From IMG/VR virus record IMGVR_UViG_3300035660_000098, positions 1 to 20,991 of that record: 20,991 nucleotides of DNA. One strand, 5' to 3'. Made by a program: the position numbers and the translations under genes. The notes below the pieces were generated by a model. It made no database searches, was not told the origin of the DNA, and saw nothing but the letters and a program-made list of their open reading frames with translations. This document shows positions 1,412-20,344 of this stretch, one piece after another. This DNA comes from a virus. Each line of letters starts with the position of its first letter. Position 1 is the stretch's first letter.

Positions 1412-3259
1412 ATGCCCCGGGAGCGGCCGGATATGGTCGCCTGGGCCCAGAGTCATTATGTCCTGCCCACCGGCGACGTGGCGGTGGCGGGTCCCTGGTC
1501 GCCGGAGTATGTGCCGTTCTGGGTGGAGCCGATGCGGTGGCTGTCTTCGAGCCTGCTGCGGCAGCTCAACGTCGCCGCCTGCACCCAGGCCGGCAAGACC
1601 GAGACTTCGAACATCTTCATTAGCTACCGCTCCGACGTGGAACCTTCGCCGAAGCTCCTCATCCTGCCCACGGAGGATGCCGTGAAGGAGCGGCTGGAGA
1701 TGCGGTTGAAGGCCGTGATCCGGTCGAGCCCCCACCTGCTCAAGATGTTCGGTGACGACATCCGCAATTTCAATATCAGCAAGGCCAACCGTTTCGGCCG
1801 GGCGATCCTGTACATCGGCTGGGCGAATAGTCCGATCAGTCTCTCGGACCGGCCCGTGTGCGATGTGGTGCTCGATGAGCTTGCGAAGTATCCGCACGCC
1901 GTGGGCCGGGAGGCCGACCCGGTCTCGCTGGCCAAAAACCGTCAGCGGACGTTTCAGCACAAGTCCAAACTCCTGATCGTTTCCTCGCCGATTCTGGAGG
2001 ACGATCCGTTCTGGCTGGCCTGGCTCGCGGGCGATCCCTACGACTGGTGGGTCCGGTGCCCGTTCTGCGGCGCCTGGCATCAGATGCGGTGGGAGCACGT
2101 CCATCTCGATCACGATGACCGCGGCAAGCTCCTGGCCCCGCGCGAGTACACCCGGGGCGGTCACGCTCGCTACGTCTGCCCGCGCTGTGGGGCCTTCTGG
2201 ACGGAATACGAGCGCTGGCAGGCGGTGACGGCCGGCCAGTGGGTCCAGGCAGGAGCGACGGTCGAGACGGACGGACAGATCAAGGGCGGCCGGCCCGCCG
2301 GTCCGGTCCGGTCGATCCGGGTGCTCTCGATCATGCTGCACCCGATCTTTCAAACGATAGACGGCCTGGCGGCGGACTGGGCGGCCGCCCAGATCGCCAA
2401 ACGCCAGGGCAACGTCAAACCGCTCCAGGATTTCATCAATAACCAGCTCGCCGAGCCGTGGAAGGAGACGGCGCGGGCCACGCCGCTGGACCTGCTCCGC
2501 AAGCACATTGGCCTAATCCCCTCCAGCGTGGTGCCCGATGGCACGCTCTTCCTCACGCGGGGGATCGACGTGCAGCTCGATCATTTCTACGTCCTGGACG
2601 TCGCCTGGGGCGATCTCGCGCAGGCCTGGGTGGTTTTCTATGGCCGGATCGATACGGGCGACACGGAGCGGCTCTCGAACTGGGGTCCGCTGGAATCCTA
2701 CCTCAAGAGCGGCTGGCCCCTGGCGAGCGACTCCTCCAAGCGTCTGCATCCCGTCCTCGCCTCGATCGACTGCGCGTACCACACGGAAGAGACGCTGACT
2801 TTCGCCCGCCAATGCCAGCGGCAGGGGATCAAGCTCGTGCCCGCCCGCGGCTCGGAGCACGAGCACATGCGCCGGGGGATCGTCCGGCCGTTCAAGGACG
2901 CCTCGAAGAACATCCTCCGCTACGACATGAACGTGGACCACTATAAGAGCATTCTGCACTCGATGCTCTACGTGACGCAGGACCCCGGCCCCGGCTATCT
3001 GCACCTGCCGGCGGATACCCAGGACGAACTGCTGATCCACCTCTCCAGTGAGGAGGCCCGCGATATCCCCTACAAGGGCCGCCGCTTAGTGATCTGGGTG
3101 AACAAGCGGGAGCAGCCGAACCACTGGTGGGACTGCTTAGTGCACGCCCGCAACGCCGCCGAGCTGATCGGCGTCCGCTGGCTGGACCCGGCGGCGGCCC
3201 GGCCGAGCCGGCCGGAAGGAAAACCGGTGGGACCACTGGCGATCCGGACGCAATACTGA
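1412..3259 (+). CDS. terL: Terminase large subunit, GpA family
   Basis: This is the packaging ATPase-nuclease that cuts concatemeric DNA and pumps it into the prohead. The 615 residues are close to lambda gpA (641). A Walker A-like loop TQAGKTE lies at 58-64 and a Walker B strand DVVLDE at 151-156. Two CxxC pairs (C216/C219 and C256/C259) form a zinc-knuckle-like insertion between ATPase and nuclease. The nuclease part shows the expected acidic residues: D386 in GIDVQ, D453 in SIDCAYH and D574 in NHWWDCLVHA. The start is ATG 1412, with GGAGGAG at a rather long 12-base spacing. The same frame stays open upstream to 1277 without ATG, GTG or TTG, and reads protein-like (LGLFEEERELL), so a rare start upstream is possible. 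Confidence 0.95.
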   Translation: MPRERPDMVAWAQSHYVLPTGDVAVAGPWSPEYVPFWVEPMRWLSSSLLRQLNVAACTQAGKTETSNIFISYRSDVEPSPKLLILPTEDAVKERLEMRLKAVIRSSPHLLKMFGDDIRNFNISKANRFGRAILYIGWANSPISLSDRPVCDVVLDELAKYPHAVGREADPVSLAKNRQRTFQHKSKLLIVSSPILEDDPFWLAWLAGDPYDWWVRCPFCGAWHQMRWEHVHLDHDDRGKLLAPREYTRGGHARYVCPRCGAFWTEYERWQAVTAGQWVQAGATVETDGQIKGGRPAGPVRSIRVLSIMLHPIFQTIDGLAADWAAAQIAKRQGNVKPLQDFINNQLAEPWKETARATPLDLLRKHIGLIPSSVVPDGTLFLTRGIDVQLDHFYVLDVAWGDLAQAWVVFYGRIDTGDTERLSNWGPLESYLKSGWPLASDSSKRLHPVLASIDCAYHTEETLTFARQCQRQGIKLVPARGSEHEHMRRGIVRPFKDASKNILRYDMNVDHYKSILHSMLYVTQDPGPGYLHLPADTQDELLIHLSSEEARDIPYKGRRLVIWVNKREQPNHWWDCLVHARNAAELIGVRWLDPAAARPSRPEGKPVGPLAIRTQY

Positions 3260-4674: not shown

Positions 4675-6210
4675 ATGGGCAAGAGCGTCACCATCCTGGG
4701 TTCTGACGGCCGGCCGGTTCGCACGGCCCGGCAGCGGACCCAATCCGCCGACGGCCGCCATGAGATCGTCATGGACGGGATCGGCGGCGCCTACGCGGCT
4801 ACCGGCTATCATTCCCGCTCCATCGCGGTCAGCGAAGGTCAATCCTATAGCCAAGGGTCCGGCGAGCAGCATCAGCGGTTCGACCGCCATATCCTGGTCG
4901 ATGAGTCCCGCGGCCTGGACCGGGACAATCCACTGTACGCCTCTATCATCGACACCGCGATCACCTATATCCTCGGCTCCGGTTTTTCACTTCAGAGCGA
5001 GCCCAAAATCGAGCAGCTCTGGAACGATTGGTGGCGGTCCCCCGAGATCACGAACCGGCTCAGCGGCGGCGAGGTCGAGCAGATGGTGCTCCGGGAGATC
5101 ATCTTGTGTGGGGACCACCTGATCGTCAAAACAAAAAAGGGCCTGATCGATCTGATCGAGTCGGAGCGGCTGGCCCAGGGCAATCGGACAAGTACGGGGA
5201 TCGCGACGGACAGTCTCGGCCGGCCCACGCGTTTCTCCGTCTGCGCCTATGGCAAGAATGGGATGCTCAATTATAGCAAAGAGACGCCGTACAAGGCGGA
5301 TCAGGTGATCTTCTTAGCCTGTCCCCGGCGGCCTTCGGAGCTGCGGGGGATGCCCATCCTCCAGAGCACGTTCGCCATGCTGCACCGCATCAACGATACC
5401 TGCGACGCGGAGGCGATCGCGATGCAGCTCCAGGCCCGCTTAGCCATTGCGATCAAAAAGACGCAGGCGGCGCAAATGGGCTACCTGGAGAGCAAGGACG
5501 ATGCGGGGCAATCGACCACGGAGGACACCGGCGCCTTCACGACCCGGATCACGGAACTGAAATACGCGATCATCGCCCACCTGGAGCCGGATGAGGACGT
5601 GACCACGATCGAGCGGAACATCCCCGGCAAGGATTTCCCGCAGTCGCTGCGGATGTTCCTGCGGCTGATGGGTCTGCCGTTGGGGATGCCGCTGGAGCTG
5701 GTGCTCCTGGATTGGACCCAGAGCAACTACAGTCAGAGCCGGGCCGTGATCCAGCAGGCCTACGAGCGGTTCGTTAAATGGCAGACCAAGCTGATCGCTT
5801 TTTTCTACGATCCCCTGCTCCGCTGGAAGCTCGCGCAGTGGGAGGAGCAGAAACTGCTCGGGAATAAGGCGGCGAAAAATGTCAAGTGGGAATGGATCAC
5901 GCCGACCTCGCCCTGGATCGATCCGCAGAAGGAAATGGAGGCGGTGGGCCTAAAATTGGATCGCGGCCTGACCACGCACGGTCGGGAGTGCAAGGCATTG
6001 GGGATCGACCGTAACGACGTCAACGATGCCCGCGAGGCGGAGATCCGCGACGCGATCAAGCGGGTGCAGAAGATCAAGGAGGACACCCAGGTGGCGGTCC
6101 CTTGGCAGGTCTTCGCGGGCGCCGTGACGGCCCCGGCGGCGAAGAAACCGGAGCCGGCTCCGGCGGCGGAAAATGACAAAAACCAACCGGGAGTGGATGA
6201 GAATGCCTGA
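4675..6210 (+). CDS. Portal protein, lambda gpB family
   Basis: This forms the dodecameric ring at one capsid vertex through which DNA enters and to which the tail attaches. The 511 residues match the family (lambda gpB is 533). RGLDRDNPLYASIIDTAITY near 80-100 is the usual N-terminal helical signature. Residues about 220-260 carry the conserved block PSELRGMPILQSTFAML followed by an acidic DAEAIAMQLQARLAIA helix, typical of Phage_portal_2. The C-terminal ~35 residues are Ala/Pro/Lys-rich and disordered. The ATG immediately follows the TAA of the gpW-like gene with no Shine-Dalgarno sequence of its own, so translation is coupled. The 3' end overlaps the protease gene. Confidence 0.93.
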   Translation: MGKSVTILGSDGRPVRTARQRTQSADGRHEIVMDGIGGAYAATGYHSRSIAVSEGQSYSQGSGEQHQRFDRHILVDESRGLDRDNPLYASIIDTAITYILGSGFSLQSEPKIEQLWNDWWRSPEITNRLSGGEVEQMVLREIILCGDHLIVKTKKGLIDLIESERLAQGNRTSTGIATDSLGRPTRFSVCAYGKNGMLNYSKETPYKADQVIFLACPRRPSELRGMPILQSTFAMLHRINDTCDAEAIAMQLQARLAIAIKKTQAAQMGYLESKDDAGQSTTEDTGAFTTRITELKYAIIAHLEPDEDVTTIERNIPGKDFPQSLRMFLRLMGLPLGMPLELVLLDWTQSNYSQSRAVIQQAYERFVKWQTKLIAFFYDPLLRWKLAQWEEQKLLGNKAAKNVKWEWITPTSPWIDPQKEMEAVGLKLDRGLTTHGRECKALGIDRNDVNDAREAEIRDAIKRVQKIKEDTQVAVPWQVFAGAVTAPAAKKPEPAPAAENDKNQPGVDENA

Positions 6211-7540
6211 GAGCAAGATTGAAGTGGGCCTGCTGACGGAATTGGCGATGGAGCCGTGGGCGATGGAGCCGGGCCGATTACAGAGCCTTTTCCTCCGGGT
6301 CCGCGACCAGGCGGCGGCCTTCGCCGCCCTGGCGAAAGTCTCGATCGACCGCCCCAAACCCGCGCTGCGCGTCGATGGCACGATCGCCATGATTCCAATC
6401 AGCGGGATTCTGATGAAGCAGGTCCCGTCCTGGATGGCCTTTTTCGGGATCGACGGCACGGCCTACAGCGACATCCGCGACCTGGTCAACCAGGCGGCGG
6501 ACGCCAAGCAGGTGACGGCGATTCATCTGGTGGTGGATTCGCCCGGGGGCACGGTGGCGGGCGTGGCGGACGCCGCCGCGGCGATCCGGTCCGCCCGCAA
6601 GCAGAAGCCGGTGACGGCCCACGTCCAGGACCTCGCCGCCTCCGCCGCTTATTGGCTCACCGCGCAAGCCGAGCGGATCACGGCCGACCTCAACGCCGAG
6701 ATCGGCAGCATCGGCGTCTATACCGTCTACGATGATTTCTCCCGGTTCGTCGCCAATGCAGGAGTGGTCGTCCATGTCATCGCCTCCGGAGAGCACAAGG
6801 GCATGGGAGTATTCGGGGCGGCCATTACGCCCGCTCAGATCGCGGCGGTCCGCGAAGTCATTGATGGGATCGCTGCGAATTTTCGTGATGCCGTGGCTTC
6901 TGGTCGCGGGTTATCCGCCGCCGAAGTCGAGCTCCTTTCGACGGGCCAGCTCTGGGAGGCCAAGGCCGCCCTCGCCCATAAGTTGATCGATGGGATCGGC
7001 CGGCCGTCCGCCGGCCAGAATCCGCAATCCGAAATCCAAAATCCGAAATCACAAGAAGGAGTACCGAACGTGGAAACGACTACCCAACCCCAAGCAGCGG
7101 CCCCGGATATCGAGAAGATGAAGACGGAGGCCGCCGCGCGGGAACGGACCCGGCTCACGGAAATGGTCGCGGCGTTCCCGAAGGACCCGAAATTCGCGAT
7201 GGAGCAGTTCTCCGCCGGCGTCACGGTCCAGGAGGCCAAGGCCGCTTATTGCGACACCCTGATGAACGCCCAGAAGCCGGAACCCGATGAGGAAGGTGTG
7301 GCGGGCACGCCGGGATATCAGCACGGCGGGTATCAAGGGGGCAGTCCGGGTCCCGGTTCGGCCGGCGGATTCCTCCCGGCCGTGCGTTCCTACGCCCGCG
7401 AGCGCAAATGCAGCCGGATCGCGGCGATTCAGGCCGTCCGGACCGAGTCGCCGGATCTCTACGAGAAATTCCGCGCCGAGTCCCGGCCGCCGATGGTCCA
7501 CGGCCGCTGCAAACGCGTCAGCGTGGAGTTGGGCTCCTGA
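6203..7540 (+). CDS. S49 prohead protease with C-terminal scaffold, gpC/Nu3-like
   Basis: This is the capsid maturation protease, whose C-terminal part serves as scaffold. The S49 (SppA-type) domain spans about 55-265. It shows SPGG at 113-116, the nucleophile Ser147 in DLAASAAYW and the general-base Lys199 in GEHKG. A short linker (NPQSEIQNPKSQ) is encoded by a heptanucleotide repeat tract and leads into an acidic, helical scaffold-like part. That part has a Gly-rich region and a basic C-terminal helix (SRIAAIQAVRTESPDLYEKF). I chose ATG 6203 because GGGAG lies 8 bases upstream; ATG 6173 would add 10 residues. It overlaps the portal end by 8 bases. Length (445) matches lambda gpC (439). Confidence 0.92.
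   Translation: MPESKIEVGLLTELAMEPWAMEPGRLQSLFLRVRDQAAAFAALAKVSIDRPKPALRVDGTIAMIPISGILMKQVPSWMAFFGIDGTAYSDIRDLVNQAADAKQVTAIHLVVDSPGGTVAGVADAAAAIRSARKQKPVTAHVQDLAASAAYWLTAQAERITADLNAEIGSIGVYTVYDDFSRFVANAGVVVHVIASGEHKGMGVFGAAITPAQIAAVREVIDGIAANFRDAVASGRGLSAAEVELLSTGQLWEAKAALAHKLIDGIGRPSAGQNPQSEIQNPKSQEGVPNVETTTQPQAAAPDIEKMKTEAAARERTRLTEMVAAFPKDPKFAMEQFSAGVTVQEAKAAYCDTLMNAQKPEPDEEGVAGTPGYQHGGYQGGSPGPGSAGGFLPAVRSYARERKCSRIAAIQAVRTESPDLYEKFRAESRPPMVHGRCKRVSVELGS
7019..7053 (+). repeat. Heptanucleotide tract inside a coding region, 5 units
   Basis: AATCCGC, AATCCGA, AATCCAA, AATCCGA, AATCACA make exactly five 7-bp units. They are translated in frame as the linker between protease and scaffold. The same family fills intergenic spacers elsewhere, so this looks like a former gene border or an inserted tract that stayed open. 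Confidence 0.75.
7070..7540 (+). CDS. Nested scaffold protein with internal GTG start
   Basis: An internal in-frame start, GTG 7070, preceded by AAGAAGGAG with about 8 bases spacing. It would yield the last 156 residues of the protease gene as a separate scaffold, as lambda Nu3 is made from within C. The product is acidic and helical near its N-terminus (PDIEKMKTEAAARERTRLTE), has a Gly-rich flexible middle and ends in a basic helix suited to binding capsid protein. The strong Shine-Dalgarno directly behind a spacer-type repeat is the best evidence. Expression of both forms is inferred. Confidence 0.65.
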   Translation: METTTQPQAAAPDIEKMKTEAAARERTRLTEMVAAFPKDPKFAMEQFSAGVTVQEAKAAYCDTLMNAQKPEPDEEGVAGTPGYQHGGYQGGSPGPGSAGGFLPAVRSYARERKCSRIAAIQAVRTESPDLYEKFRAESRPPMVHGRCKRVSVELGS

Positions 7541-7575: not shown

Positions 7576-8298
7576 ATGGCCGAGCAAACGAATGGCACGA
7601 TGGGATTTCCGGTAGCCGCCGCAGTGACCGCGTTTCGGCGGGTCAAGCTCGACGCGGCGGGCCGGGTTGCACACGCCGGCGCCAGCGACTACGGAATCGG
7701 CGTCGCGCAATTTGCTCAGGTCATTCCCGGCCTGCAAGTGGCGGTGCGGTCCTGGCACGAGGGATCGCTCATCATCGAGGCGGCCGGGGCTATCACCGCC
7801 GGGGAGGAGGCGTTCGCGGCCTCCGCCGGCCGGATCGCCGCCACCGGAACGCTCCTGATCGGCACCATTTATACGGCCGCCAGCGGGGCGGGCAGCGTGG
7901 TCGAGGTCTTCCCGCATCTCGGCGTCATGCAATCGTCGAGCAGTATTTCAAGCAGCTCCTCCTCCTCCAGCAGCAACTCCAGCTCCTCGAGCACTTCCTC
8001 CTCATCGACCAGCTCCTCGTCATCGAGCCTGTCGGTTTCCAGTTCGACGAGTTCTTCATCTTCGAGCCTGTCGGTTTCCAGTTCGACCAGCTCTTCCTCA
8101 TCGAGCCTGTCGGTTTCCAGCTCGACGAGTTCTTCATCATCGAGCCTGTCGGTTTCCAGCTCGACGAGTTCTTCATCTTCGAGCCTGTCGGTTTCCAGCT
8201 CGACGAGTTCCTCTTCGTCGAGCCTGAGCAGTTCCAGCTTTTCATCGTCCAGTTTAAGTTCCGTCAGCCTGTCATCGAGCAGTTCTTCGAGCGGGTAG
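7576..8298 (+). CDS. Capsid decoration protein with 120-residue polyserine tail
   Basis: Residues 1-119 form a compact beta-rich domain like the DUF2190 capsid-cement family. They include AVTAFRRVKLDAAGRV, a GIGVA strand, and an ITAGEEAFAASAGRIAATG stretch. The gene lies between scaffold and major capsid protein, the position of lambda D. Residues 120-239 are almost all serine, with Leu, Val and Thr at regular places. A 13-residue unit (SLSVSSSTSSSSS) occurs five times. AAAGGG precedes the ATG. The next gene is a paralogue, about 57% identical over the first 120 residues by hand alignment, but with only a short serine tail. A surface location of the tail follows from known cement proteins; its job is unknown. 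Confidence 0.85.
   Translation: MAEQTNGTMGFPVAAAVTAFRRVKLDAAGRVAHAGASDYGIGVAQFAQVIPGLQVAVRSWHEGSLIIEAAGAITAGEEAFAASAGRIAATGTLLIGTIYTAASGAGSVVEVFPHLGVMQSSSSISSSSSSSSSNSSSSSTSSSSTSSSSSSLSVSSSTSSSSSSLSVSSSTSSSSSSLSVSSSTSSSSSSLSVSSSTSSSSSSLSVSSSTSSSSSSLSSSSFSSSSLSSVSLSSSSSSSG
8026..8220 (+). repeat. Five tandem 39-bp repeats encoding polyserine
   Basis: Units begin at 8026, 8065, 8104, 8143 and 8182 with AGCCTGTCGGTTTCCAG. A sixth, degenerate start lies at 8221. Each unit encodes 13 residues in the decoration-protein frame. Units differ only at a few bases, mostly silent serine changes or single Ser/Thr-type positions, so the array is recent or being homogenised. It is a place where tail length could change by slippage or recombination. 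Confidence 0.9.
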
Positions 8299-8330: not shown

Positions 8331-8711
8331 ATGGCAGAACAAAGACAATGGCCGATCGCGCTGCCCGCCGCCTCGGCGGTCACCGCCTTTCGGCGAGTGC
8401 GTTTGAACGCGGCGGGCCGGGTCTCGCACGCGGGCGCGAAGGATTACGGGATCGGCGTGGCCCAAGCCGCCCAGGCCACGGTGGGCAAGGACGTCACGAT
8501 CCGCGGGTACGACGAGGGCACGGTCAAAATCGAGACCTCCAGTCTCATCGTGGCCGGCAAGAGGGTCTACGCCTCCGCCAACGGCTGCGTGGCGGCCACG
8601 GGCACAGTGTTGATCGGGACCGCCTATAAGGGCGCTTCAGGCAGCGGCTCGATCGTGGAGGTCATCGTCCACCGGGGCCTGCTCCAGTCGTCCAGCTCCT
8701 CCTCGTGGTAG
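8331..8711 (+). CDS. Second capsid decoration protein, short serine tail
   Basis: A 126-residue paralogue of the preceding protein, aligning without gaps over residues 1-120 (68 identities by hand count). Shared blocks are AVTAFRRV, AAGRV, HAGA.DYGIGVAQ and TG..LIGT.Y. It ends in QSSSSSSW, so the serine segment starts at the same residue but is only six long. AAAGGAG precedes the ATG. It follows the other copy by 32 bases and comes before the major capsid gene, so both are probably displayed on the head. Two cement proteins could occupy different sites or compete for one. Confidence 0.85.
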   Translation: MAEQRQWPIALPAASAVTAFRRVRLNAAGRVSHAGAKDYGIGVAQAAQATVGKDVTIRGYDEGTVKIETSSLIVAGKRVYASANGCVAATGTVLIGTAYKGASGSGSIVEVIVHRGLLQSSSSSSW

Positions 8712-8787: not shown

Positions 8788-9747
8788 ATGTCAGTACAGT
8801 ACACGGGTTTCAGCACGCCGCGCGAGGATTTGGGCATGGCGCTGCACGAATTCGATCCGTCGTCGCAGGGGCTGATCGCGACGCAGGTCCTGCCGATCCG
8901 GGCGGTGCGGAAGCAGGCGGCCAATTTCAGCATGATCTCGCGGGAGAACAAGAAGAACGCGGAGCGCGTGAAGCGCGCCGCCGGCAGTGCGTTCGCCCGC
9001 GTGCACATGCGGGCGGAGGATCTAGCCTATGCCTGCGAGCTCTACGGCCTGGAGGCCCCGCTCGCCGACGAGGACCGGGACAACTACGAGGACGACTTCA
9101 ACGCCGAGATGGAGCTGACGCAGTTGATCAACCTGCTGCTGCTGCTCGATCTGGAGATCGAGGTCGCGGCGCTGGTCTTCAATACGGCCACGTGGACGGG
9201 CGGCGGCCTCTACGTGGACCACAACGCGGCCCCCTGGGACGCCGCGGCCACGGACATCATTGCCCAGGCCGAAGAGGCCAAGGAATACGTCCGGCAGAAC
9301 TGCGGCCAGCCGGCCAACGCCCTGGTCATCAGCGCCAAGACGCTCTCGAACATGCGGCTCAATACCGGGATCAAGGGCGCGTTTCCCGGCATCGCGACGC
9401 TGACCTATTCCGCCCTGATCGGCAATCTGCCGGGCATTCTCGGCATCGAGCGAATCCTCGTGGGCGGCCAGGTCTACGACACGGCGGACGAAGGACAGGC
9501 CTCCACGATGGCGGATATCTGGCCGGACGATTACGCGATGTTCGCCCGGCTCAATAGCTCGGCAGACAGTCTCTGGGCGCCGGGTCTGGGCCGGACGATG
9601 GCCTGGCGGTCGGTGTCCTCCGATCTGGTCGCGACGGATCAGTACCGGGAAGAGCAGACAAAATCGGACATCTTCCGCGTGGAGCACGCCCTGGATCCGC
9701 TGATCCTCAATAAATACTGCGGGTTCCTGATCAAGATCGACGCGTAA
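8788..9747 (+). CDS. Major capsid protein, HK97-fold, E-type
   Basis: This is the main shell subunit. The 319-residue length is close to lambda gpE (341). After an N-terminal arm (residues 1-30) come typical features of the family. These are a long helix (ELTQLINLLLLLDLEIEVAA), an N-W-motif region with HNAAPWDAAATDII, an AKEYVRQNCGQPANALVIS strand-helix, and a C-terminal beta region (DIFRVEHALDPLILN). It has a strong double ribosome-binding site (AAGGAAAGGA). It carries no serine tail, unlike its neighbours. The family assignment is from pattern and order (scaffold, cement, capsid). Confidence 0.9.
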   Translation: MSVQYTGFSTPREDLGMALHEFDPSSQGLIATQVLPIRAVRKQAANFSMISRENKKNAERVKRAAGSAFARVHMRAEDLAYACELYGLEAPLADEDRDNYEDDFNAEMELTQLINLLLLLDLEIEVAALVFNTATWTGGGLYVDHNAAPWDAAATDIIAQAEEAKEYVRQNCGQPANALVISAKTLSNMRLNTGIKGAFPGIATLTYSALIGNLPGILGIERILVGGQVYDTADEGQASTMADIWPDDYAMFARLNSSADSLWAPGLGRTMAWRSVSSDLVATDQYREEQTKSDIFRVEHALDPLILNKYCGFLIKIDA

Positions 9748-10386: not shown

Positions 10387-10421
10387 TTGATGTTTGATTT
10401 TTGATGTTTGATTTTTGATTT
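10387..10421 (+). repeat. Heptanucleotide repeat tract, 5 units
   Basis: TTGATGT, TTGATTT, TTGATGT, TTGATTT, TTGATTT in exact tandem. It starts 5 bases after the stop of the connector gene and ends 11 bases before the ATG of the gpZ-like gene. It leaves no room for a good Shine-Dalgarno sequence. Confidence 0.85.
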
Positions 10422-11547: not shown

Positions 11548-11982
11548 ATGCTCGGTAAAGGAACCACGCTGACCGGCTCGGTGACGGGCCTGATCGGCCA
11601 CATCCGGAACATCAACTTCGAGGGCACCAAGGTCGACAACCTCGACAACACGGACGCCGACACCCCCGGCTATCACCGCACGTTCGAGCCGGGCCTGATC
11701 GACTCCGGCCGCTTCACCTGCGAGGTCCTCTACAACGCGACCTACGCCTGGGCGGTCCTGGCGGCGCTGAAGAACCGCGTCACGGAAAGCTGGAAGGTCC
11801 AGTTCGCCGACGGCCGCCGCCGGTGGTTCTGGGGCTATCCCGACGATAGTTCGCTCGCGGGTCCGCACGATGCCCTGGTCAGTTACAATTTCGGCATCAA
11901 GATCACCGGGGCGATCACGAGCAGTTCGTCCTCCTCCAGCAGCTCGTCGAGCCTGTCCTCCTCCAGCAGTTCCTCGGCCTAA
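11548..11982 (+). CDS. Major tail tube protein with polyserine C-terminus
   Basis: A 144-residue tail tube subunit, gpV-type. The core (1-124) shows the family pattern: TGLIGHIRNINFEG, then DNTDADTPGYHRTFEPGLID, FTCEVLYN, and the strand WKVQFADGRRRWFWGY. Residues about 125-143 are nearly all serine. In lambda gpV an Ig-like domain follows the tube core and decorates the tail outside; here a serine tail takes that place. AAAGGAG precedes the ATG. With hundreds of copies per tail, the tail tube would be coated with serine strands. That display is inferred from homologous tube structures. Confidence 0.85.
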   Translation: MLGKGTTLTGSVTGLIGHIRNINFEGTKVDNLDNTDADTPGYHRTFEPGLIDSGRFTCEVLYNATYAWAVLAALKNRVTESWKVQFADGRRRWFWGYPDDSSLAGPHDALVSYNFGIKITGAITSSSSSSSSSSSLSSSSSSSA

Positions 11983-12735: not shown

Positions 12736-12769
12736 AATCAAAAATCAACAATCATAAATCATAAATCAC
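12735..12769 (+). repeat. Heptanucleotide repeat tract, 5 units, abutting tape measure ATG
   Basis: AAATCAA, AAATCAA, CAATCAT, AAATCAT, AAATCAC. The first base is the last base of the frameshift product's TGA, and the last base directly precedes the tape measure ATG. The spacer therefore consists of repeat only, with no Shine-Dalgarno sequence. Confidence 0.9.
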
Positions 12770-14968
12770 ATGGCCGACACCTGGCAAAAATCCGGCATCG
12801 AGTACATCGTCAAGGACTCCACGCGCACGGGCGTAGCGGGCGTGCAGAAGAGTTTGCAGACCCTCGAAAAGACCGCCCAGGGCGTCAGCAAGATGCTGGG
12901 CACGGCCCTGGCGGTCGGCGTCGGCTACGTGGGAATCTCCAAGCTGGTCAGCGGCTATCAGGAGGTGGCCCAATCGATCAGCGACACGGCCAAAGCGGCG
13001 GACATCCTCCAGATCTCGACGGAGAGCATGAGCGGCCTCAAGTACGTGGCGGAGCAGTCGGAGGTCGCGGGGGCCTCGATGGTCACGTTCCTGGAGCGGC
13101 TGACCCGATTCGGAGCGGAGGCGGCCCAGGGTACGGAGGCGGCGCGAATCGGCCTGCAGCAACTGGGACTCAGCGCCAAAGAGTTGAGCGAGACCAGTCC
13201 TGATCAGGCGATTCGCAAGCTGGCGGACGCCTTCCAGACGATCCCCAACGCCTCGGACCAGATGCGGCTCGCGTTCGACATCTTCGGCCGGGGCGGCGCC
13301 GAGATGCTAAAGGTCCTGCGTCTCGGCAGTGCCGGGATCGATGAGATGATGGTCCGGGGCCAGAAGTTGGGCGGGGTCTTGACCGAAGTGGACGCGGCCC
13401 TGGCGCACCAGGCGGAAGTCGCCTTGAAGGAACTCCGCACGATTAAGAAGGCGATCCAGGACCAGCTCGTGGTGCAGGTGGCTCCCTATATCGCGGCGTT
13501 GGCGGGCCGTCTTGCGGACGCGGCGGCGGCCGGCGGCGGGTTCGGCGAGACGGTGACGAGTGCGATGGAATCCGTCGCGGTCGCGGCGGGCAAAGTGCTG
13601 GATATCCTCATCAAGATCGAGAACATCAAGAACTCGGTGGCCCTGCGCGCTTACGACGCCGCCTTTAAGAAGGATGTCTTCGATACCACCAAAGAGGTCT
13701 ACGCGGACCAGATGAAGCGGGAGGGGAAACAGCCTTGGAGCCTGCTGGGCAAGGGCGGGGTGAGGTACGAGAACCGCTGGGCCCAGGCGGAGGAGATCGT
13801 CCGCAAAGACCGGACTCCCGCCTACGAGGCGGGCCGGGCCCCGCTGGTGCAGGAGGCGAGCAACGCCGAGCAAACCAAGACCTATTTCGCTCAACTTCGC
13901 CAGCGGGCCCAGGGGATCCGTGAGCAGGCGGAGACGGAGGCCCGGATCAAGGAATACGGCCGCAGCCCGATGGCAGTTTCGAATCCAGCGGGAGTGATGC
14001 CGACGGAGCAGGAGATCAAAGACGCCGAGCAGGCCATCCAAGAAGAAGAGCGAGCGGTCCGGCGGGCGGCGGAGGGGATGCAGCGGCTCCGGGACCGGGT
14101 CTCGGAGATGGACGCCGCGACGGAGACGGAGATCGAGGTGGTGCGGCGGGCGGGGGACGCCCACGGCAAATTGGGCGAGATCGTGCGTTACGAGATGACG
14201 GTCCGCGAAGCCTATGGGGATAGTGTCGATGAGGTGACGCGGCGCTTGGAGAATCATCGCCGCGCGCTGGAGCTCCTGTCCCGGGTCGAGTTTTCGAACC
14301 GGTCGCTCGATGACCTGGGCCAGACCTTGACGGACATCGCGTTCGACTTCAAGAACGCCAGCCAGTACGCGGAGCAGTTTTTCAACACCCTCGCCCGCCG
14401 CGCGACCAACGAATTTATCATGCAGCCCTTCATGGATGCGATCAAGCCGGGCGTCGCCTCGCTCTTTGCCGGCGGCGGTCGTCAAAGTTACGGCAGTCTC
14501 GATACCTCCGTCGGCTCGAATTATCAGGCGCAGTCTGATTTCTACGGCTATAGCGCCGAGGTCCATCACGCGGGCGGCGGGGTTGGGGATGCTGGTCAGA
14601 CCCGCTATCTGCCCGTGGGCGCTGCCGATCGCTATCTCGCTTCGAACGAGCGGCTGATCGTGGCGCGGGTGGGCGAGGAGGTCCTGACCGAGCAGGAATC
14701 CCGCCGCCAGCGCGTCGCCGTCTATCATGGCGGGGGCATCGTCGGCGGCTCGGCCGAGGCGGCCAGTGTCCCGGCATCGGGCGGTGCCGCGGGCCGGCCG
14801 GACAAAGTCGAGGTCCGGATCAGCAACCCGCCGGGCAGTCCGCTGGAGGCGACGGGCGCCCAGATCTCCTTCGACGGTCCCACGATGATCGTCGGCGTGA
14901 TCCTCGACAACATCCGGCGGGGCGGCGTGATGCGGGACCAGATCCGCATGACGGCGCGGGGGGGGTAG
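12770..14968 (+). CDS. Tail tape measure protein, gpH-like
   Basis: A 732-residue protein that sets tail length and is later released into the cell with the DNA. A hydrophobic stretch lies near 40-60 (GTALAVGVGYVGISKLVSGY). A lambda-type DIFGRGGAEMLKVL motif sits near 165. A coiled-coil-like, Glu/Arg-rich region spans about 410-460. The C-terminal part has the usual short motifs HHAGGGVG (about 598), then NERLIVARVGEEVLTEQE and YHGGGIVGG (about 651). At about 0.15 nm per residue the tail would be near 110 nm, an estimate only. The ATG has no Shine-Dalgarno; the heptanucleotide tract abuts it. Confidence 0.92.
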   Translation: MADTWQKSGIEYIVKDSTRTGVAGVQKSLQTLEKTAQGVSKMLGTALAVGVGYVGISKLVSGYQEVAQSISDTAKAADILQISTESMSGLKYVAEQSEVAGASMVTFLERLTRFGAEAAQGTEAARIGLQQLGLSAKELSETSPDQAIRKLADAFQTIPNASDQMRLAFDIFGRGGAEMLKVLRLGSAGIDEMMVRGQKLGGVLTEVDAALAHQAEVALKELRTIKKAIQDQLVVQVAPYIAALAGRLADAAAAGGGFGETVTSAMESVAVAAGKVLDILIKIENIKNSVALRAYDAAFKKDVFDTTKEVYADQMKREGKQPWSLLGKGGVRYENRWAQAEEIVRKDRTPAYEAGRAPLVQEASNAEQTKTYFAQLRQRAQGIREQAETEARIKEYGRSPMAVSNPAGVMPTEQEIKDAEQAIQEEERAVRRAAEGMQRLRDRVSEMDAATETEIEVVRRAGDAHGKLGEIVRYEMTVREAYGDSVDEVTRRLENHRRALELLSRVEFSNRSLDDLGQTLTDIAFDFKNASQYAEQFFNTLARRATNEFIMQPFMDAIKPGVASLFAGGGRQSYGSLDTSVGSNYQAQSDFYGYSAEVHHAGGGVGDAGQTRYLPVGAADRYLASNERLIVARVGEEVLTEQESRRQRVAVYHGGGIVGGSAEAASVPASGGAAGRPDKVEVRISNPPGSPLEATGAQISFDGPTMIVGVILDNIRRGGVMRDQIRMTARGG

Positions 14969-15016: not shown

Positions 15017-15559
15017 ATGTCGTCCAGCTCGATTTCATCCAGCCTTTCATCTAGCTCGCTCAGCTCCCTGTCGGTCTCCTCGTCGTCGCTCAGTTCATCG
15101 AGCTCAGCCTCCGTCAGCTCTTCCTCCTCGCTATCCTCCAGCTCCAGCAGCAGTTGCGGCCTGGATTTTCCGGAATTGATGAGGGCCTCGGCTCGGGGCT
15201 TTCCCCAGGAGTTCGTGATCGACCCGGGCGTGGCTGCGGCCCAATTGGGCAATGGCCGCACCCGCACCCGCCGCGAGTGGCAAGACGCCTTTCGCGGCTG
15301 GCGGGACCGGCTCATCAATTGCAGTACGGCCGATTACGCCATTTTCGAGACCTTCTATCGGGTCACCGCCCATCGCAGCGTGCGGCCGTTCACATGGACC
15401 AATCCCCGGACGCAGGAGCGGGTCCTGGTCCGCTTCTGGTTTCGGGAGCCGCCGCGCTGGCAGCGGGTCGTGGACCATCAGATCGAGTGGGCAGTGGATT
15501 TCACGCTGGCCGAATGCGCCGGGGCGACGGGCACCGGCTATGGAGGCGCGGATGTGTGA
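15017..15559 (+). CDS. Minor tail protein, gpM-like, with N-terminal polyserine
   Basis: A 180-residue protein. Residues about 2-47 are nearly all serine with scattered Leu, Val, Ile and Ala. The remaining part reads like tail-tip protein M: TRTRREWQDAFRGWRD, then YAIFETFYRV, FTWTNPRTQERVLVRFW, a PP-R-W turn and VDFTLAEC. Position directly after the tape measure agrees (lambda H-M order). I chose ATG 15017 rather than 15011 because GAGGGAAG then has a 6-base spacing. It is the only protein here with the serine segment at the N-terminus, so the site of the segment has moved or was gained independently. Confidence 0.78.
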   Translation: MSSSSISSSLSSSSLSSLSVSSSSLSSSSSASVSSSSSLSSSSSSSCGLDFPELMRASARGFPQEFVIDPGVAAAQLGNGRTRTRREWQDAFRGWRDRLINCSTADYAIFETFYRVTAHRSVRPFTWTNPRTQERVLVRFWFREPPRWQRVVDHQIEWAVDFTLAECAGATGTGYGGADV

Positions 15560-15650
15560 TATTTGATGTGTGATGTTTGATTGAATTGGAGGCGGGCGTG
15601 CCCGCAAGAGTCTTGAAATCAAAAATCAAAAATCAAAAATCAAACATACC
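15551..15650 (+). repeat. Composite repeat: two opposed heptamer tracts around two palindromes
   Basis: A GATGTGT/GATGTTT-type tract (15551-15585, five units) is followed by the palindrome GCGGGC GT GCCCGC (15592-15605), the palindrome CAAGA G TCTTG, and four AAATCAA units (15616-15643). The two heptamer tracts are in opposite orientation, so the element is an inverted repeat overall. The left tract includes the stop codon of the gpM-like gene; the right ends 7 bases before the next ATG. A near copy lies at 20170-20277, with an additional partial copy after it. Confidence 0.85.
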
Positions 15651-19400: not shown

Positions 19401-20167
19401 CGGGCGCCTTAGCGCCGCCGCCCAGCCGGGGTCTGCGCGTCTCCGCCCTCGACGTGACGGGCGATGGCGACGATACGATCTCCTGGCTCGCCGGCAGCAT
19501 CTCCTACGCGGGCTACGTCTATCCGATCGTCGCCGGCGCCACGACGGATAAATACGTCTGGTTCGATCCCGGCGCCGTGGACCCCTTGACCCTGAAAACC
19601 GGTGCGACCTGGCCCGCCGATCCCGACATCTACAAGATGTTCATCAACGTTGCCGGCCAGCCGGTGGCGCTCTACGGCCAGCAGGTGGTCGGCGAGGACC
19701 CGGCCGGCGTCCTGCCGCTCTTGGTCGATGGCTCCCGGGTCGCGGCCAAATTGGGGATCACCGGCCACGCCTGGTTCGACGCCGAGTATGACAACGGCAA
19801 TTCCGGCGCGGCTAAGACGATCGACTGGCACAACGGCAATAAGCAGCTCCTGACCCTGACCGCGAGCTGCAATTTGACGTTCACCAATCCGGACGGCGCG
19901 GCGAACCTGGTCCTGCGGCTGATCCAGGGCGGCGCGGGCGGCTACACGCTGACCTTGCCCCCGAGCACCTATATCGTGGGCGGGACGGCCTTGACCTTGA
20001 GCGCGGCGGTCGGAGCCGAGGACATTCTGACCCTCTATTACCCCGGCGGCGGCAAGGGCTACCGGGTGGTGGCGGCGGCCTCGCAGCAATTGTCCAGCTC
20101 ATCGAGCACGTCGTCGTCGTCGTCATCCTCATCGGAATCGTCGTCCAGCTCCTCGGGAGGGGCATAG
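16499..20167 (+). CDS. Fused tail-tip protein: NlpC/P60 (K) + I + J (host specificity)
   Basis: A 1222-residue fusion. Residues about 14-110 look like an NlpC/P60 cysteine peptidase (lambda gpK C-domain): C16 in GNCWRLV, H73 in THLGVVL and H85 in FLHA. Residues about 125-195 match the ubiquitin-like gpI tail assembly protein (SIAEWLAQEGVPAAACLLNG). A hydrophobic Gly/Ala/Met stretch follows (about 198-250). From about 268 the gpJ core begins with QAQGGAVPKIYGDVRVHG. Near the end a beta module (KTIDWHNGNKQLLTLTASCN) is followed by polyserine (about 1198-1219). Because C16 must be kept, the start is ATG 16499 or TTG 16493. The first ~11 residues come from a heptanucleotide tract. No Shine-Dalgarno is present. 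The protein carries receptor binding. Confidence 0.85.
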   Translation: MINQTSNIKNQTSGNCWRLVQATRQAAGLAMPDQLPWLAGLVRGPAGPARFVRLAAPQTYAIVAIRMGEYVTHLGVVLSPQEFLHATDAGPRVERIEAWAPRIEGFYEFAYPALPPGREESGAVPGSLTILTNPLTGATRAAAGPAAGRSIAEWLAQEGVPAAACLLNGEPLGPKEWSYRPRPGDRVQVIVLVGKDTQMMGMILMVMLAVVSYGVGGYVGGAAGLGWGQGWGAAAAAGIMIGGSLLLNTLLAPGAPDAAQARQAQWSDQTIQAQGGAVPKIYGDVRVHGNIIGHYSELGAVTTRGLQPAWWIAIEEGWRQFFNLTNPELNTPITATPVKLSTQHLRNVLICFGEGPIGSFDVSSLRINDQSITDLAGVAVEYRNGTLEQTAMSKFNTETPIEFFAGYVLPYDTNVRTYTLPGTGYDDAEVTVVYTNGIWSMDQSELVPQRVVLKVEVGDAVGNTWQTLFAGFVWGETTNPLRVVYRASTTYEGGAPLAITRAMQPRFRVTRIEPSYQGTTWGGDCMIGEVRGILNEVFEHPGKVLMQISALPSDLLSGSLDVSIVVHGSILQRWDAAANPPAWVLDAVKPQNPAWIDYDILTYPLISGDGIGTPYAVEEYRGVDPDTIDLTGFLATEVLADGQVPDGLGGAGLENRIEIDTVFGETGNVYDAVRRIGVTGRAGLDLRGNQVGLWCDDARVPCGLFGDGNWLKDSWEPDPIPQADRAAELEIVYYDQDNGDEQTPILVPDLEIETTNRSAIDCRGTRRRSEAWRTGRYNLARNRLLDLAGRFATDIDGIIYEPGDVLYIQLPGRSWGGRLAAVDSGADTVTLDQDVRTSAGACLIVQVRDSVTGGQAAGYRLVASLAGRVVSFAGAWIFPAGVTAAAAADDAYLFGPAAILTDTFEVMEVQPQAHLQFGISVIRYAAGVYTADDEESGISIDSGVAVDPPTAGPPRPPTPAQMAALLPPGALAPPPSRGLRVSALDVTGDGDDTISWLAGSISYAGYVYPIVAGATTDKYVWFDPGAVDPLTLKTGATWPADPDIYKMFINVAGQPVALYGQQVVGEDPAGVLPLLVDGSRVAAKLGITGHAWFDAEYDNGNSGAAKTIDWHNGNKQLLTLTASCNLTFTNPDGAANLVLRLIQGGAGGYTLTLPPSTYIVGGTALTLSAAVGAEDILTLYYPGGGKGYRVVAAASQQLSSSSSTSSSSSSSSESSSSSSGGA
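16504..16531 (+). repeat. Heptanucleotide tract within the K-I-J N-terminus, 4 units
   Basis: AAATCAA, ACATCGA, ACATCAA, AAATCAA, translated as part of MINQTSNIKNQTS. This is a spacer tract that became coding, or a gene start that lies upstream of it because the catalytic cysteine follows immediately. Confidence 0.75.
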
Positions 20168-20169
20168 TG

Positions 20170-20277
20170 GATGTGTGAAGTGTGATGTTCGAAGTGTGAT
20201 GTTTGATTGAGGTTGGAGGCGGGCGTGCCCGCAAGAGTCTTGAAATCAACAATCAAAAATCAGAAATCAAAGATCAC
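20170..20277 (+). repeat. Composite repeat, second copy
   Basis: Six GATGTGT-type units (20170-20211), GCGGGC GT GCCCGC (20219-20232), CAAGAGTCTTG, then five AAATCAA-type units (20243-20277). It matches the element at 15551-15650 in order and orientation. Together they flank the L and K-I-J genes as direct copies. Confidence 0.85.
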
Positions 20278-20282
20278 AAAAT

Positions 20283-20344
20283 GAGGCGGGCGTGCCCGCA
20301 AGAATCTTGAAATCAACAATCAAAAATCAGAAATCAAAAAGGCC
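20283..20344 (+). repeat. Composite repeat, third (partial) copy
   Basis: It lacks the left heptamer tract. GCGGGC GT GCCCGC (20286-20299), CAAGA A TCTTG, then AAATCAA, CAATCAA, AAATCAG, AAATCAA (20310-20337). The central base of the second palindrome differs (A instead of G), but both arms are kept. It is followed by ATGAAGCAG, as is the copy at 15651. Confidence 0.8.

Follow-up and report, generated by a model that had tools for sequence, protein, structure and literature searches.

The window, a viral fragment of 20,991 bp from IMG/VR (record IMGVR_UViG_3300035660_000098), contains a lambda-type phage head module with the gene order terminase, portal, protease/scaffold, decoration and capsid. 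The module includes a GpA terminase (1412-3259), a portal protein of the lambda family immediately upstream of the gene under study (4675-6210, + strand; PF05136, 1.7e-46), a cement/decoration-like phage protein with a poly-Ser tail immediately downstream of it (7576-8298, + strand; phrog_673, 1.7e-12, with a PF09956 match of 0.0036 that is below the cutoff), a second cement-like protein (8331-8711) and the major head protein (8788-9747, + strand; phrog_1005, 3.1e-43). Long serine-rich tails or stretches occur in several structural proteins of the window (7951-8298, 8690-8711, 11928-11980, 15020-15140 and 20100-20167), and one of these stretches is built on a 39-nt repeat unit.

The gene between the portal and decoration proteins is a fused open reading frame (6173-7540, + strand; probable start ATG 6203, downstream of GGAG at 6190-6193), which combines an S49 head maturation protease with a C-terminal domain that is very probably a scaffold. 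It matches PF01343 (1.6e-29) and, over residues 22-373, the head maturation protease family phrog_53 (1.7e-63), and is the same in two further assemblies (0 mismatches in 1368 nt). Residues S143 and K195 (A1 numbering, residue 1 at 6215) are invariant in the aligned proteases, and presumably represent the Ser/Lys pair of the S49 family. A protein scan of genome contigs found no relative.

The protease domain ends with the residues LID at 6991 and is followed by a linker of 26 codons (6992-7069, + strand; 15-49 codons in relatives), which is predicted to be disordered. Within this linker, and shorter than it, lies a heptad array of the unit AATCCGN (7019-7050, + strand), which TRF reports as a period-7 array of 4.6 copies with 88% match, and which has five ATC cores spaced exactly 7 nt apart (7020-7050). 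These AAATCNN-type heptads are translated in frame between the two domains as QNPQSEIQNPKSQ (NPQSEIQNPKS over the array), and the frame of the gene continues across the array and the following start as QNPQSEIQNPKSQEGVPN-V(GTG). Directly behind the repeat is the Shine-Dalgarno sequence AAGAAGGAG (7053-7061, + strand), translated within QEG(V) and with its GGA-G kept in register, whose GGAG is separated by 8 nt from an in-frame GTG (7070-7072). The initial annotation, which had read five repeat units as a protein-coding linker with the AAGAAGGAG element and a GTG immediately after it, is thus confirmed on both points. AlphaFold2, run with 18 relatives, gave a pLDDT below 50 at residues 271-297 (about 7025-7105), a predicted low-confidence stretch that would cover most of the repeat-encoded part and extend over the nested start into the first residues of the scaffold. 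Three further phage sequences that are 74% identical to the window (L005-L007), and whose linkers are identical to each other, retain five units in the same frame, followed by the Shine-Dalgarno sequence GAAGGAG and a GTG. When L021 is compared with L023 and L027, its whole linker, including the Shine-Dalgarno sequence and the nested ATG, is seen to be tandemly duplicated in frame, which is a further sign that the linker tolerates repeats.

The nested scaffold start

To the GTG corresponds a putative nested gene of 156 aa in the frame of the protease (7070-7540, + strand), which shares the stop at 7540, starts at a conserved alignment column, and encodes a domain that is homologous across relatives and predicted to be helical. 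Searches of 7070-7540 for a match to a Pfam or curated scaffold family found none; its putative role as a scaffold is drawn from its position, the homology of the layout and the helical prediction.

We aligned 53 relatives from viral contigs, and in the 48 with a fused C-terminal part looked, over the 75 codons that follow the protease domain, for an in-frame ATG, GTG or TTG with 5 nt or more of Shine-Dalgarno match. Such a start is present in 34 of the 48, against 12.8 predicted by synonymous codon shuffles of the same genes and 8 in the two out-of-frame readings pooled; equally long control windows from the protease part contain one in 9 of 141 cases. About 14 of the 48 have no Shine-Dalgarno match of this length in the scanned stretch. 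These relatives, whose identity reaches down to 32%, are not independent of each other, and the counts are to be read accordingly. Among the 20 genes that have a glycine four codons ahead of the nested start, this glycine is encoded by GGA in 19 and by GGG in the remaining one, as against a gene-wide GGA count of 245 of 1859 glycine codons (13%). All 20 have a G as the first base of the codon after it, which specifies V, D, E, A or G. As GGA and the following G are kept while the residue varies, GGAG is constrained as RNA rather than as peptide. In 20 of 25 genes the stretch from -45 to +18 of the nested start is also less structured in the RNA than its synonymous versions (mean z 1.1; 1.9 for the window gene), and on average it is weaker in structure than 93% of windows from the same gene. 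Between the window and L005 the GGAG and the GTG are unchanged while the surrounding bases differ; the GTG of the window is a weaker start codon than the ATG of most relatives. Taken together, the excess over the shuffles, the register of GGAG and the relaxed RNA make it very probable that 7070-7540 is a nested scaffold gene, in line with the earlier proposal of a scaffold with its own start behind the linker.

This arrangement recalls that of lambda, whose overlapping genes C and Nu3 are a classical case (Shaw and Murialdo 1980, as cited in PMC8508860); in both P2 and lambda the protease and scaffold are encoded by one gene (PMC8508860). The window gene shares with lambda C/Nu3 and with the lambdoid phage 434 (OL657226), which has an annotated nested Nu3 with its own ribosome-binding site, an S49 protease, a C-terminal scaffold in the same frame, a conserved internal Shine-Dalgarno sequence and start, and a common stop; as in lambda, it is located between the portal and the decoration/capsid genes. 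It differs from lambda in that the proteases are only about 27-36% identical, the nested start is GTG instead of ATG, and the linker is repeat-encoded. On all the sequence features tested, the layout of the window works like lambda C/Nu3.

The scaffold is also found outside the S49 context. In L241 (2347-3435) a scaffold homologous to that of the window (BLASTP 1e-14) is fused to an unrelated head maturation protease, which matches phrog_3244 and has no similarity to the S49 domain. At the joint, a Shine-Dalgarno sequence and an ATG can be read off the sequence AAGAAGGGAGAGGTGATG, which the stricter scan did not re-detect. The scaffold has hence been transferred as a module together with its start, though without the repeat. 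In a separate set of loci (L249-L254), a protease and a probable major capsid protein share one open reading frame of about 700 aa, in which an AAGGAG...ATG that is conserved in frame directly precedes the capsid part. The general rule seems to be that a rare protease is placed ahead of an abundant structural protein, with the latter having its own start.

Heptad arrays in the phage and in bacterial genomes

The linker array belongs to an AAATCNN heptad family that recurs throughout the window. On both strands of its 21 kb, arrays defined by an ATC core at exact 7-nt spacing and A-richness, with 3-5 units or more, number 10 at a minimum of three units, against 0.29 expected from dinucleotide Markov sequences (0.03 for arrays of at least four units). 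The nine others lie between genes or at gene ends; an intergenic one resembling that of the linker (12737-12767, + strand) stops 2 nt before the ATG at 12770 and occupies the same place in L005-L007. As intergenic gaps in phages are short anyway, we do not count the proximity of arrays to start codons as proof of function. Three sites also have arrays in L005-L007: all of these phages have one in the linker and one at the tape-measure start, and L006 and L007 have one at a third site. At this third site, which is intergenic and upstream of the gene at 10.4 kb (10389-10419; L006:10189-10205), the units are of TTTGATG type in the window and of ATTTCGG type in L006, which gives the impression that the array was replaced or homogenised. 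An element consisting of a GC-rich palindrome joined to a heptad array, GAGGCGGGCGTGCCCGCAAGA(G/A)TCTTGAAATCAA, is present in three intergenic copies (about 15588-15644, 20210-20275 and 20283-20335).

The same heptad is widespread in bacteria. The exact 25-mer AATCCGAAATCCGAAATCCGAAATC occurs in at least 119 stretches of bacterial genomes, mostly MAGs, and the phyla among the matches listed include Acidobacteria, Verrucomicrobia, Planctomycetes, Bacteroidetes, Chloroflexi, Deltaproteobacteria and several CPR groups. The 7.4-Mb genome of the acidobacterial MAG SZAS-13 has about 2,800 matches to an 18-mer and 0 to the reversed pattern. In this MAG (L108, L114, L119, L157; G001) a reverse array is often followed by a forward array about 80-100 nt later, and such inverted pairs could form long hairpins. 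The fetched loci contain 231 arrays, of which 68 in the forward and 21 in the reverse sense are located within open reading frames of at least 250 aa; these frames are mechanical calls instead of curated genes and make up 70% of the DNA; arrays are hence depleted in genes yet far from excluded from them. Ten array-bearing frames from unrelated uncultured bacteria (L198, L188, L163, L150, L176, L197, L208, L216, L160 and L154) were identified through NCBIfam as conserved enzymes, in the order of these loci GltX, GlmU, UvrA, HypF, two LeuRS, PBP2, QueA (with its array in reverse sense), CCA transferase and HdrA. In these ten the arrays fall inside the NCBIfam-matched parts, in the case of the LeuRS of L197 only by way of several separate matching stretches. 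When aligned with solved structures, the array falls in a gap, of 13 residues in GltX and of 7 residues in GlmU. The loop that holds it varies in length among GlmU and UvrA relatives of 60-84% identity, which have other sequence in place of the array; tolerant loops are hence filled by different sequences, of which the heptad is one.

The unit AATCCGA has no stop in any of the six frames, and AATCCGN is open in the forward frames. Since 7 is coprime to 3 and the unit is free of stops, every forward frame yields the same cyclic peptide, NPKSEIR. We lean, by a modest degree, to the view that AATCCGA-type arrays are cross-phylum repeats open in all frames that invade, or grow in, those loops and linkers of essential proteins that tolerate them, in both bacteria and phages, with the phage linker being a case that doubles as the leader of a nested gene. 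Under such a reading total length, and not the phase of insertion, would matter, as all forward frames give NPKSEIR.

A literature search on the AATCCGA-type heptad found nothing on it, while TAACTGA and other repeats have been described. The Rickettsia palindromic elements are likewise dispersed repeats tolerated in frame within coding genes, and are long, palindromic and confined to one genus, whereas the heptad is short and tandem. The TAACTGA heptads of Beggiatoaceae, cyanobacteria and Bacteroidetes (PMC4679880) are also 7-nt tandem units that occur in distant phyla, mostly in intergenic regions and often before starts, but sometimes in open reading frames; they have stops in all three forward frames, unlike the AATCCGN unit of the window, which therefore does not belong with them. 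The repeats within open reading frames of Borgs (PMC9879509) resemble the linker array in being tandem repeats of an extrachromosomal element that encode disordered stretches. However, their unit lengths are all divisible by three and they are almost never common to different genomes, whereas the AATCCGA-type unit has 7 nt and is common to many phyla.

Origin of the heptad linker

To see which came first, the layout or the repeat, we used a protease-domain tree built without the linker columns. The window and L005 form one branch (100/99), with L008 (100/99) and next L014 (97/93) just outside it. L008 (50% identical) and L014 (44%) have a nested Shine-Dalgarno sequence and ATG without the heptad; L227 (48%) agrees with them, and phage 434 is also nested without the repeat. 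The phage relatives from GenBank are all below 60% identity, and are thus informative only for the layout. As the repeat-free L008, L014 and L227 are already nested and the repeat is derived on the tree, the fused nested layout appears to be older than the repeat; with L008, the nearest repeat-free phage, only 50% identical, slight room is strictly left for an earlier repeat that was lost in it. Linker lengths are similar with or without the repeat (26 codons in the window, 27 in L008, 25 in L014), arguing against a clean insertion. The repeat would then either have come in from elsewhere and displaced linker sequence, or have expanded locally, in both cases within a disordered linker that was already fused.

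These observations suggest the following explanation. Ribosomes from the 5' start would make a small amount of the protease-scaffold fusion, in which the C-terminal scaffold domain may carry the protease into the prohead, and ribosomes from the Shine-Dalgarno sequence and GTG (7053-7072) would make a larger amount of free scaffold. The heptad array would have come into, or expanded within, the linker of this already nested gene, as one copy of the widespread, mostly intergenic AAATCNN family that is tolerated in frame in linkers and loops. Its AATCCGN units would code for a disordered polar peptide, and its A-rich RNA would keep the nested start unstructured; being stop-free as well, the array suits both jobs of the linker. 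Going by the sequence evidence, we give this explanation as a whole, a lambda C/Nu3-type nested pair with a heptad array that arrived or expanded later in its linker, a probability of about 0.78.

A role of the heptad beyond tolerance, in which it was selected as a translation leader of the nested gene, for example by being unstructured or binding S1, is unlikely. It would fit with the weakly folded RNA of the nested start and with the maintenance of arrays at the orthologous tape-measure start in L005-L007, and TAACTGA heptads too occur just before start codons, with a proposed translational role (PMC4679880). However, L008, L014, L020 and L023 have equally low structure without any heptad, and the AATCCGA unit is found elsewhere inside enzymes with no start nearby.

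Less probable still is that the nested start goes unused and that the fusion is the sole product, from which the protease cuts the scaffold free. This is the described mode of P2, where gpO, like the Mu I/Z-type genes and the window gene, combines protease and scaffold in one gene, but with release by self-cleavage. Proteases of this type are known to self-cleave, and the disordered linker is plausible as a cut site; yet the retention of GGAG as RNA, the excess of starts over synonymous shuffles and the relaxed RNA would all be left unexplained.

The initial annotation had taken the repeat as the seam of a fusion, where separate genes were joined through a readable intergenic spacer while the second kept its own start, and had offered this as a route to the lambda C/Nu3 layout. 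The setting of the array is suggestive of such a history, as nearly all the other arrays of the window are intergenic, several end 2-25 nt before a start codon, and in the linker, likewise, 19 nt separate the array from the nested start; the scaffold is also modular, being found behind an unrelated protease in L241. However, the tree contradicts it, for the nearest repeat-free relatives, L008 and L014, as well as the lambdoid phages, are already fused and nested. Relatives with a separate protease and scaffold, which the seam would predict, were sought with the scaffold domain alone, and this search found no homologous scaffold gene apart from a protease. In L044 the protease ends early and is followed by a separate gene, but this has no established scaffold homology and there is no heptad. 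Six further candidates for a separate scaffold (L052, L060, L087, L064, L061 and L072) were rejected, as HK97-type capsid proteins follow in them. Nor do all relatives share a conserved non-repeat linker, the pattern that had been named as speaking against a seam; their linkers are non-repeat and variable. Hence the lambda C/Nu3-like layout of protease and scaffold stands, while its origin through the spacer is very improbable, as the layout predates the repeat on the tree.

Finally, a contingency switch, in which 7-nt slippage shifts the frame and leaves the protease without its scaffold part, with initiation at GTG 7070 continuing to supply free scaffold, is hardly credible and was rejected as the main function of the array: gain or loss of one unit in silico does give fusions of 313 or 374 aa in the window and 340 or 291 aa in L005 (vs 455-456) with the nested gene intact, but the array is short, interrupted and contains unit variants, exactly five in-frame units are kept in two lineages 26% apart, and the arrays are identical, with no length variant, in all assemblies seen.

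Implications for phage head genes and coding repeats

The nested layout as such is already known and the repeat-encoded linker is new; less expected is the readable heptad that recurs across phyla. Judged by the conserved start signals, the nested protease/scaffold start is a general trait of a large group of uncultured phages, conserved at the RNA level, and not a peculiarity of lambda; a scaffold with its own start can also pair with unrelated proteases. The heptads indicate that a short repeat family can enter coding sequence with little regard to frame, and is found inside housekeeping enzymes of many phyla. Of these results, the cross-phylum readable heptad most deserves separate study. 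Such a repeat family would be a simple source of new disordered linkers and loops.
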